From assembly GCF_034555375.1 (NCBI RefSeq), contig NZ_CP140706.1:3897001-3961000 (forward strand): DNA of 64,000 bases, given 5' to 3'. Below, piece after piece: positions 27,133-29,822 of this stretch; position 1 is the first letter of the stretch, and every line of letters starts with the position of its first letter. The position numbers were made by a program, and so were the translations under genes. Source of the DNA: Pseudomonas sp. B33.4. Lineage in GTDB: Bacteria; Pseudomonadota; Gammaproteobacteria; Pseudomonadales; Pseudomonadaceae. The notes beneath the pieces are model-generated. The model did no database searches. It was not told the DNA's origin and saw only the letters and a program-made list of their open reading frames with translations.

Positions 27133-27552
27133 TTACAGATCGTCCAAATCGGAAAAGGCAATCCTGCCCAGCGTCCAAGGCTCAACAATCTGGCAATGCA
27201 CATTGCGCAGGAATGAGCCCCACTCGCTTCGGTTATGGGCATCCGGGCCGGTGACCGTCAGTAACAGATATTCATCCCGAAACGCGTCATAGGCATAGAT
27301 CAGCCAAAAGTCATTATCAGCGTCGTCAACCAATACAGTGCGGTAATACTGACGATTTATTTTTGCCCATCGAGCTTGCAGTGACGAAGTACTGGCAAGG
27401 TGGATATGGTGCATATCGGTCAGATCGAGTCGTTCGTCACGCCCGAAAATCCCGGGTAATTCACCGCACACCTTGTAGTTATAAAAATGTGCAGCGAAGT
27501 TTTGCCAGTTAGTGATTTTTTCAAAAAGCGCAGAAATCTTGATGGCTGGCAT
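27133..27552 (-). CDS. YafO-family toxin of a type II toxin-antitoxin system
   Basis: This 139-residue protein matches E. coli YafO in its core: HFYNYKVCGELPGIFGRD followed by HIHLA parallels the YafO segment with FGRD and HIHLA at the same spacing. YafO is a ribosome-dependent mRNA interferase. The rest (WLIYAYD, LLLTVTGPDAHNR) also fits the toxin's sheet and C-terminal region. It starts 6 bases after a tiny upstream gene on the same strand, the usual antitoxin position. G+C is visibly lower than in the neighbours, hinting at acquisition. The toxin call is good; activity is untested. Confidence 0.78.
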   Translation of the reverse strand: MPAIKISALFEKITNWQNFAAHFYNYKVCGELPGIFGRDERLDLTDMHHIHLASTSSLQARWAKINRQYYRTVLVDDADNDFWLIYAYDAFRDEYLLLTVTGPDAHNRSEWGSFLRNVHCQIVEPWTLGRIAFSDLDDL

Positions 27553-27558
27553 TCAGGC

Positions 27559-27705
27559 CTACTTTGTAATAGGTAGCCTGCCAGTGATCACAAATTTATC
27601 GAACACTTTCTGCCCATCACGCGCGGCTTGCCGAACATCAAGGAATGTCAGCTCATCACGAACTTCCTTTTTGTCAGGTTTGTCGGTCTTTCTGGTGGTG
27701 GCCAT
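27559..27705 (-). CDS. Candidate small antitoxin partner of the YafO-like toxin
   Basis: This open frame encodes 48 residues from ATG 27705, which has GGAGG five bases upstream; an in-frame ATG at 27732 would give 57 residues but has no good ribosome site. The product is highly charged, starting MATTRKTDKPDKKEVRDE and ending DKFVITGRLPITK. It ends 6 bases before the toxin start. It is about half the size of E. coli YafN (97 residues, Phd/YefM type) and shows none of that family's N-terminal pattern. The assignment rests on position, spacing and charge. Confidence 0.6.
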   Translation of the reverse strand: MATTRKTDKPDKKEVRDELTFLDVRQAARDGQKVFDKFVITGRLPITK

Positions 27706-27755: not shown

Positions 27756-27998
27756 TTTTGACCGGCAAACGATAGGATCTTGTTTCAAGGCAGACAAGTC
27801 GGCGGATTCTTGCAGATATGTAGGTCATTACACCCAAAATTGTAGTCCGTAAAACTCCTGAATTTAGATCTCATTGCTCGGCAATGCCCATTGGTAAACA
27901 TCATCCGGTTATCACGTTTAAAGCACACAAACCGTTACGCCATCCTCCCTACAACACCTTGCGCCGTTACCTACGCGTACGCCAGAATCCGCCGGCTT

Positions 27999-28249
27999 AC
28001 ACGGCTATGGGCCGGGCTATATCGTTTGCCTGTCACTGCAAAACAGTGATCGGGTTTGGTAGCCCGTCTGTAATAGCCGTGTGACAACATCCTGTGCTGT
28101 CTCTTTGTGGAGCTCAGTTCAATGGTAGTCATGCGTGGGGCTCACTCGTGAGCGCCGGGTTCCTATTGCAGCCGGTCTACCAACCCGCGTATGGCCACCA
28201 CCCACTCGTTTGGTAGCGAGAGTGATGGCTCCTTAAACTGCGATAGGAG
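27999..28249 (+). ncRNA. Candidate structured leader RNA of the DUF6124 gene
   Basis: The 525 bases from 27733 to 28257 hold no convincing gene but dense pairing. A perfect 10-bp stem (27999-28008 with 28073-28082) encloses two hairpins: TCACTG/CAGTGA (28033-28049) and CGGG/CCCG (28051-28066). A second domain is closed by 28130-28135 with 28188-28193 (one G-U) and contains GCTCA/TGAGC (28140-28153) and CGGGTT/AACCCG (28156-28187). A third hairpin CTCG/CGAG (28205-28220) has the same 8-base loop, TTTGGTAG, as the 28051 hairpin. CTACCAA at 28177-28183 is complementary to that loop. Finally CTCCT (28229-28233) can pair with the Shine-Dalgarno AGGAG (28245-28249). Confidence 0.6.
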
Positions 28250-28257
28250 TTTCATCC

Positions 28258-28623
28258 ATGTTCAAAATCACGCCCAACCCACCGATCACCGATCCAATCC
28301 CTCACGACCCCGCGCTTAACCCGCAAAAGGTCAAAGAAGCCACCGACCGCGCCCTCGACTACTACCTGCGACCCGAAGCACTGGGCGCTCCACCAAGCTC
28401 GCCCCCGTTTCGCCCGGTCTATCTGGTCGACCCCACGCTGGATGAAGAAACCCTGTTGGTCGAAGCCTGTGAGTCGCTTTCCTACGCCCACTCCATGGCC
28501 GGTAACATCGCCAACTCGATAGGCGGCCCGGAGCGCAAACCGCTGCTGGCGCTGCAACAGGTGATCATGCTGAACGAGCTGTTGGTCAACCGACTGCTGG
28601 ACAAGCTGCGCATCCCGCAGTAG
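28258..28623 (+). CDS. DUF6124 family protein
   Basis: This 121-residue cytosolic protein belongs to a family that I know mainly from Pseudomonas (DUF6124), function unknown. The N-terminal third is proline-rich and presumably disordered (ITPNPPITDPIPHDP); the C-terminal part (about residues 60-118) is alpha-helical, with LLVEACESLSYAHSMAGNIA and LLALQQVIMLNELLVNRLL, and may dimerise. AGGAG lies 8 bases before ATG 28258 and can be masked by an upstream CTCCT, suggesting translational control by the leader. A terminator-like hairpin follows the stop. Confidence 0.75.
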   Translation: MFKITPNPPITDPIPHDPALNPQKVKEATDRALDYYLRPEALGAPPSSPPFRPVYLVDPTLDEETLLVEACESLSYAHSMAGNIANSIGGPERKPLLALQQVIMLNELLVNRLLDKLRIPQ

Positions 28624-28638
28624 TCAACAGACGGACTG

Positions 28639-28668
28639 AGTGAGGGGTCACACCCTCACTTTCGCTTT
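28639..28668 (+). terminator. Probable terminator after the DUF6124 gene
   Basis: An 8-bp stem AGTGAGGG / CCCTCACT with a 6-base loop lies 16 bases past the stop. The T-tract is broken (TTTCGCTTT), so termination may be partial. Confidence 0.6.
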
Positions 28669-28750
28669 GCCGCCTCCCGCAGATTGATGAGCAGAACTCA
28701 TCAAGCCATCCCGATTTATCCGTCTAGTCCCCACCAGTCACCTCGCTTAG

Positions 28751-29692
<942 letters not shown>

Positions 29693-29822
29693 CCTGAAAA
29701 TGGACCTGATATCGATGTCTTAAAGAAAATCGGCGTTCGGGGTTGTGGTGAATGCGCTGATCTACAAGCCCTCGCCCGCGTTCAGCGTCCATACTGTGGT
29801 TTTCAAAAGTCGGGACACCGCC

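Follow-up and report, generated by a model that had tools for sequence, protein, structure and literature searches.

In Pseudomonas sp. B33.4, the leader of a DUF6124 gene is very probably a complete C4 antisense module of the P1/P7 kind, which would repress the DUF6124 gene on its own transcript and which is one of about 40 cassettes in this genome, each with a code of its own. C4 is best known from phages P1 and P7, where it serves as an antisense RNA. The stretch of 64,000 nucleotides that was analysed as a whole (the window) belongs to a 6.6-Mb genome in one contig. A search of the entire window against Rfam at the curated cut-offs, as proposed in a sequence-only reading of the leader, returned two matches, C4 and its target element c4-a1b1, both in the DUF6124 leader (Table 1), and settles most of the question. 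Read against this family, the twin loops that had drawn attention to the leader are a1 and a2 of the known C4 machinery and CTACCAA is its a' arm. The two hairpins, CTACCAA, CTCCT and AGGAG all lie where they had been described.

Table 1. Features of the DUF6124 leader and its surroundings (positions in the window)
Feature	Position	Strand	Details
YafO-type toxin gene	27133-27552	-	PF13957, 35.2 bits, cut-off 25
Predicted sigma-70-like promoter	27997-28025	+	-35 TTACAC 27997-28002, 17-nt spacer, -10 TATCGT 28020-28025
c4-a1b1 target element (RF03163)	28019-28070	+	50.1 bits, gathering cut-off 46.7
a1 hairpin CGGG-TTTGGTAG-CCCG	28051-28066	+	loop TTTGGTAG 28055-28062, complement of a'
b1	28068-28076	+	complement of b', 9 pairs including one G-U
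C4 antisense RNA (RF01695)	28118-28205	+	73.2 bits, gathering cut-off 45, E 2.2e-12
Mature C4, putative ends	~28124-28202	+	begins at GGT; placed by P1 annotation and alignment
b' arm of C4 (TTCCTATTGCAG)	28160-28171	+	pairs with b2 and b1
a' arm of C4 (CTACCAA)	28177-28183	+	pairs with a1 and a2 loops
a2 hairpin CTCG-TTTGGTAG-CGAG	28205-28220	+	loop TTTGGTAG 28209-28216, complement of a'
CTCCT	28229-28233	+	possible weak cis hairpin with Shine-Dalgarno
b2 (CTGCGATAGGAG)	28238-28249	+	includes Shine-Dalgarno AGGAG 28245-28249
DUF6124 protein gene, 121 aa	28258-28623	+	PF19619, 60.1 bits, cut-off 27

The b' arm forms a 12-pair duplex with b2 (-17.6 kcal/mol), which lies over the Shine-Dalgarno of the DUF6124 gene; the b'-b1 duplex of the window amounts to -9.8 kcal/mol. 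The sequence-only reading had proposed a ribosome site masked by CTCCT. Masking itself stands, but CTCCT is a weak candidate, and the Shine-Dalgarno is covered best by b'-b2, which had been missed. Over 153 leaders, the CTCCT/AGGAG helix averages 5.9 pairs within a leader versus 5.5 across leaders and reaches at least 5 in 131 leaders versus 74% of cross-leader pairings, which points to a hairpin that is above chance, weakly.

Alignment of 42 of the 43 leaders in the genome (L063, whose C4 is broken, was left out) bears out the suggestion that CTACCAA can pair with either loop. All seven a'-a1 pairs and all seven a'-a2 pairs are changed on both sides, with 94.9% and 89.1% of cells paired, respectively. 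The covarying pairs that were to be sought in other copies are thus found in both loops, and the whole-structure score was reached by none of 500 shuffles. Together with the folding of positions 27990-28260 (z = -4.29; none of 200 dinucleotide shuffles equally stable), this confirms a structured leader under selection. The P1 stem of the C4 scaffold is 97.6% paired across the aligned leaders, and the GG of the P1/P7 processing site is retained in the window C4 (GGT at 28124).

The 43 copies hold 26 distinct a' strings, which a1 and a2 track. With a G-U pair counted as half, the best a'-a1 score is 7 or more in 38 of the 43 leaders versus 11.5% of mismatched pairs (the best a1 places of L045 and L049 fall off the usual spot), and the best a'-a2 score in 33 of 43 versus 7.8%. 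When the C4s of all 43 cassettes were reassigned over the leaders and duplex energies compared in 20,000 permutations, none equalled the true assignment for any contact (z -14.7 for a'-a1, -13.3 for a'-a2, -9.8 for b'-b1 and -14.7 for b'-b2); with 123 cassettes z ranged from -15 to -28, with 0 of 10,000 permutations for each of the four. On this evidence the leader is best read as a C4-type antisense repressor that acts on the gene behind it and has multiplied into dozens of copies, largely independent of one another, and the earlier proposal that it regulates the DUF6124 gene is very likely correct.

The genome as a whole contains 43 C4 matches (42 above the cut-off), 41 a1b1 matches (20 above the cut-off) and 39 DUF6124 genes, and 14 control genomes gave zero matches to all three. 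C4 lies no more than 600 nt upstream of 34 of the 39 DUF6124 genes; conversely, 33 of the 43 C4s have a DUF6124 gene no more than 600 nt downstream and 40 have an a1b1 match upstream. Within the genus, C4 was found in 110 of 119 sampled genomes (at least 33 per genome at the upper end) and DUF6124 in 95, with up to 43 copies, whereas across the class C4 occurred in 24 of 369 genomes and DUF6124 only in the window's own. Among named genomes, 79 DUF6124 loci were recovered, all from Pseudomonas and, being drawn from the best 80 of 552 relatives, biased to close ones. In this best 80 of 552, C4 lies upstream in 79 of 79 named Pseudomonas loci and in one phage record, at a C4-to-gene distance of 46-59 nt in 79 of the 80 and of 134 nt in one. 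Among viral contigs (80 of 116 kept, of which three were too short), C4 is present at 77 of 77 judgeable DUF6124 loci, as it is at 19 of 23 DUF3077 loci. In two viral contigs of the DUF6124/DUF3077 type, neighbouring ORFs resemble tail-assembly genes by eye. Tandem cassettes or genes, two each, occur in L075, L078, L080 and L226.

Ten C4s of the genome are without DUF6124. They include copies before clear DUF3077 genes (L022, L025 and L041), before a sub-threshold one (L034) and before small ORFs that have no Pfam name (L021, L028, L058 and L062, with L061 resembling L058 by eye); at L057, C4 precedes an apparently truncated DUF6124 gene. The L021 C4 has the top score in the genome (89.5 bits) and is followed by a 52-aa ORF, with the terminator retained; a look-alike of this ORF stands behind C4 in another genus (L210). 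The DUF6124 gene of L064, which has no C4, adjoins a PrrF small RNA (158.4 bits; 993-1178 and 1250-1397).

The DUF6124 protein itself is predicted to be helical. Sequence search gave no solved relative, structure comparison gave generic fold matches only, and profile comparison with Icd gave a probability of 0.1%, that is, no detectable similarity. Three of 20 C4 modules fetched from other genera stand before genes of the antirepressor type (AntA, Rha, Bro-N), from which an antirepressor-like role for DUF6124 may be guessed by analogy. The gene that follows DUF6124 in the window is of the carboxymuconolactone decarboxylase family; a relative (L182 1334-1501, compared with window 27853-29788) has neither the cassette nor this gene at the corresponding site. 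On the other side of the leader, a small ORF at about 27560-27705 on the minus strand, read by eye just upstream of the YafO-type gene, may be an antitoxin. In L076, L083 and L084 the YafO segment is on the opposite side of the cassette.

The diversity of the C4 arms is best described as a set of codes. Nine copies in the genome have one a' in common, TCTACCAA, and within these nine b' still finds its own b2 (z -6.6, 0 of 20,000), which is its best target in eight of nine, and less sharply its own b1 (z -3.0, 44 of 20,000; best target in four of nine), so that the code of a cassette is made up of a' plus b'. By this definition all 43 codes of the genome are different, as are 29 of the 30 fetched from a second genome (36 found), where the exception is a tandem pair whose second gene is a fragment. 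When targets are ranked by duplex energy only, b'-b2 places the cognate leader first in 19 of 43 cases, a'-a2 in 17, a'-a1 in 16 and b'-b1 in 11. With thresholds of 6 for the a-helix and 8 for the b-helix, 32 of 42 cognate pairs pass, as do 50 of 1722 non-cognate pairs. The privacy of the codes thus appears good but not perfect, and inside the cell the codes would be private. Cross-reaction with the leader in the window is conceivable for the code of L021, which gives an a-helix of 7 and a b-helix of 13.

The locus of the window cassette itself can be followed into named genomes by flanks that match on both sides (L069, L074 and L079), on one side (L070, L072 and L073) or weakly (L071). In L070 the gene is identical to that of the window at 348 of 363 positions and the block from promoter to a1 at 64 of 64, whereas b' is identical at only 5 of 12 positions and b2 at 5 of 13. 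L071, L073 and L074 resemble L070 in this replacement, the b' of L074 being that of the paralogue L037 in the window's genome, whereas L069 and L072 retain the window code. The new b' arms favour their own b2 over that of the window, at -19.8 versus -8.7 kcal/mol in L070, -11.4 versus -6.6 in L071 and L073, and -14.8 versus -12.3 in L074; L079 is an exception, with -9.1 on its own b2 versus -11.8 on that of L070. As judged from these sequences, b' and b2 are exchanged together at one syntenic locus while the genes stay near-identical. The b1 element has also changed and clearly matches the new b' in L070 only (-13.4 versus -9.2). For L071, L073, L074 and L079, duplex energies give no clear sign that b1 tracks b', the own b1 region of L071 and L073 scoring worse than that of the window; these energies come from regions at a fixed distance, which may miss a b1 behind a longer spacer. 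Among 11 pairs of own and named cassettes with proteins 95-100% identical, b' is common to 45%. At least 11 own-named pairs whose proteins are no more than 50-73% identical have almost identical codes, which indicates that codes have been reassorted.

Such diversity need not reflect selection. There is a substantial, though less than even, chance that it is neutral, with gene conversion homogenising the genes while the leaders drift, an explanation that is compatible with C4 as a repressor. The L023/L027 pair, 4 kb apart with genes 98% identical and C4s 65% identical, fits it. Against it stand the reassortment described above and the fact that several sites change together each time. Furthermore, among proteins at least 80% identical, none of 48 pairs within genomes has a common code versus 47 of 274 pairs drawn from different genomes (p 0.0005, or 0.004 if the fragment pair, which is under the length limit, is counted). 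This contrast is suggestive only, since the pairs are non-independent and the between-genome set includes orthologues, in which identical codes are expected by descent. The same pattern of near-identical proteins with different codes is seen outside Pseudomonas, where L200 and L201, from another genus, have near-identical proteins of about 92 aa behind C4 modules whose a' and b' codes differ.

The presence of about 40 modules, most of which a distinct pairing code links to their own gene, hints at a large home-grown regulatory system with features of immunity. Tentatively, and we consider this unlikely, C4-DUF6124/DUF3077 cassettes would form a multi-locus immunity-like system in Pseudomonas in which each cassette is silenced mainly by the C4 of its own code. 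If true, a transferred cassette would be active as soon as it arrived if its code were new, and silent if that code were already present; recombination would shuffle codes among loci, no genome would retain a second intact cassette with a code that it already has, and DUF6124 would act as an effector through which gain and loss of the cassette are rewarded or punished.

As to how a single cassette works, transcription would begin at about 28032, as judged from the predicted promoter. A -35/-10 pair with 17-nt spacing is present 5' of the a1 stem in 41 of the 43 own-genome cassettes, those that could be anchored, with conserved columns at -35 (T 0.93), -12 (T 0.80), -11 (A 0.90) and -7 (T 0.83); a generic scan of the window reported no promoter here. 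A sub-threshold isrK match begins at the same place as the predicted start (28032-28106, 36.6 bits versus a gathering cut-off of 50). Upstream of the promoter, one cassette class has a long conserved block, at about 27930-27996 in the window (CCTACAAC.CCTTGCGCC...CTACGCCAGAATCCGCCGGCTT), and a second class a different one (CCTTCCCACAAGGTTTTCAGGTTGTCCGTCGGACGT); these blocks are possible regulator sites.

The 10-bp outer stem thought to close the first domain (27999-28008 with 28073-28082) is present in the window, but the exact stem is not conserved and is confined to the closest copies: a helix of at least 10 pairs was found in only three of 14 compared leaders, the window and its two nearest orthologues. 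Its 5' arm shares positions with the predicted -35 box and lies ahead of the predicted start, so that with a start at about 28032 the stem would begin inside the promoter. Over 153 leaders, the mean longest helix between the outer-stem regions is 7.2 within leaders versus 6.4 with the regions of other leaders, and 82 of the 153 leaders have a helix of at least 7, compared with 42% of cross-leader pairings, which suggests some local pairing tendency.

The transcript would carry a1-b1, C4, a2-b2 with the ribosome site and then DUF6124. By analogy with P1, where RNase P does so, C4 would be freed from this transcript and, once free, would place a' on the a2 loop and b' on b2, covering the Shine-Dalgarno and blocking DUF6124 translation in trans. 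In the uncut transcript, the upstream a1-b1 would pair the same C4 arms in cis and mask C4, giving the transcript a second fold. Caution is warranted over the direction of this switch: in Gifsy-1 the IsrK leader gives, as described in PMC4825925, a translationally inactive read-through mRNA activated in trans by short IsrK, so a1b1 may act in the opposite sense.

This precedent also lends some support to a purely cis-acting riboregulator, in which C4 is never released and CTACCAA toggles between a1 and a2 of a single transcript, so that the ribosome site is either hidden or exposed. So do the energy models, in which an RNA beginning at the predicted start adopts a structure that pairs a1b1 in cis with b'-a'. 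Across the 42 own leaders, a1-a' is part of the best fold in 15 and the C4 stem in 24, the two folds differing by a mean of 1.3 kcal/mol (by no more than 5 in 30 of 42), model values whose errors likely exceed the differences between the two states. At the level of the energy model, the two competing folds of the sequence-only reading are therefore upheld. We nevertheless judge a cis-only mode of action improbable: the C4 scaffold is conserved, the GG of the processing site is retained, C4-like RNAs of Acinetobacter are described as abundant and apparently processed in RNA-seq, and C4 of P1 targets the ant mRNA (PMC5320573, PMC12197685). Of the cis-acting riboregulator proposed earlier, the regulatory RNA stands, but the element in its middle belongs to the C4 antisense RNAs; in P1, C4 is excised and acts on a target mRNA.

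That the leader is a decayed, functionless prophage remnant is highly improbable, since several sites changing in concert across dozens of copies contradict neutral decay of the family, even though C4 is a phage RNA family with antirepressor-type neighbours in other genera, some own copies look dead (the broken C4 of L063, the apparently truncated or frameshifted genes of L057 and L033) and the window copy, taken by itself, might be silent.

The C4 machine is itself known, and its occurrence in Pseudomonadales has been published (PMC5320573, citing Weinberg 2010). What is new is the setting, that is, the coupling to DUF6124, the copy number and the distinct codes. In a search of open-licence papers, none was found on the DUF6124 coupling, the Pseudomonas copy number or the distinct codes, and DUF6124 was named nowhere. 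An antisense machine of P1 and P7 occurs here in many copies on a bacterial chromosome, tied to little-known small proteins. With dozens of naturally occurring antisense-target pairs that match each other on a common scaffold, the family offers a ready set for learning the rules of RNA specificity, and the swapped codes at one locus make the reason for code differences directly testable.

In type I toxin-antitoxin systems, a small protein is held down by an antisense RNA of the same locus, as the DUF6124 protein would be; there the antisense RNA overlaps on the opposite strand, whereas C4 here lies upstream on the same strand. IsrK (RF01394) of the Salmonella Gifsy-1 prophage is also a leader RNA before a small ORF, but a terminator ends the short IsrK RNA, the window has none and the payload differs. 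According to Table 3 of PMC4603805, isrK (with terminator) and C4 lie in one transcription unit in Burkholderia cenocepacia. Acinetobacter baumannii Group 1 is described as having many chromosomal C4-like sRNAs with a variable a' loop, for which RNA-seq suggests processing at GGW (PMC5320573). As far as that account goes, the chromosomal abundance is alike, and in the window's genome the C4s sit on leaders with their own matching targets. The closest parallel is the icd-ant system of P1 and P7, in which RNase P cuts the C4 precursor and C4 blocks ant mRNA translation near the ribosome site, as described in PMC5320573 and PMC12197685. The same Rfam search of an 8-kb piece of P1 gave C4 at 68.8 bits and a1b1 at 51.0 bits, and the P1 record is annotated in the order a1, b1, C4, a2, b2, icd. 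The window is thus alike in family scores, order of parts, b' over the ribosome site and a' as specificity arm, and the distance from C4 match to start codon is 47 nt in P1 and 52 nt here. The terminator between a1b1 and C4 in P1 is absent from the window. When terminator-like sites were sought within 60 nt before C4 (shuffled rates 5-10%), P1 had one, as did 15 of 20 C4 modules of other genera, versus 8 of the 43 own copies, 9 of 30 in genome G010 and 16 of 79 named loci; in the window none was found in those last 60 nt, nor by a generic scan. Finally, this genome has 43 chromosomal copies, and the window C4 precedes DUF6124 in place of icd and ant.
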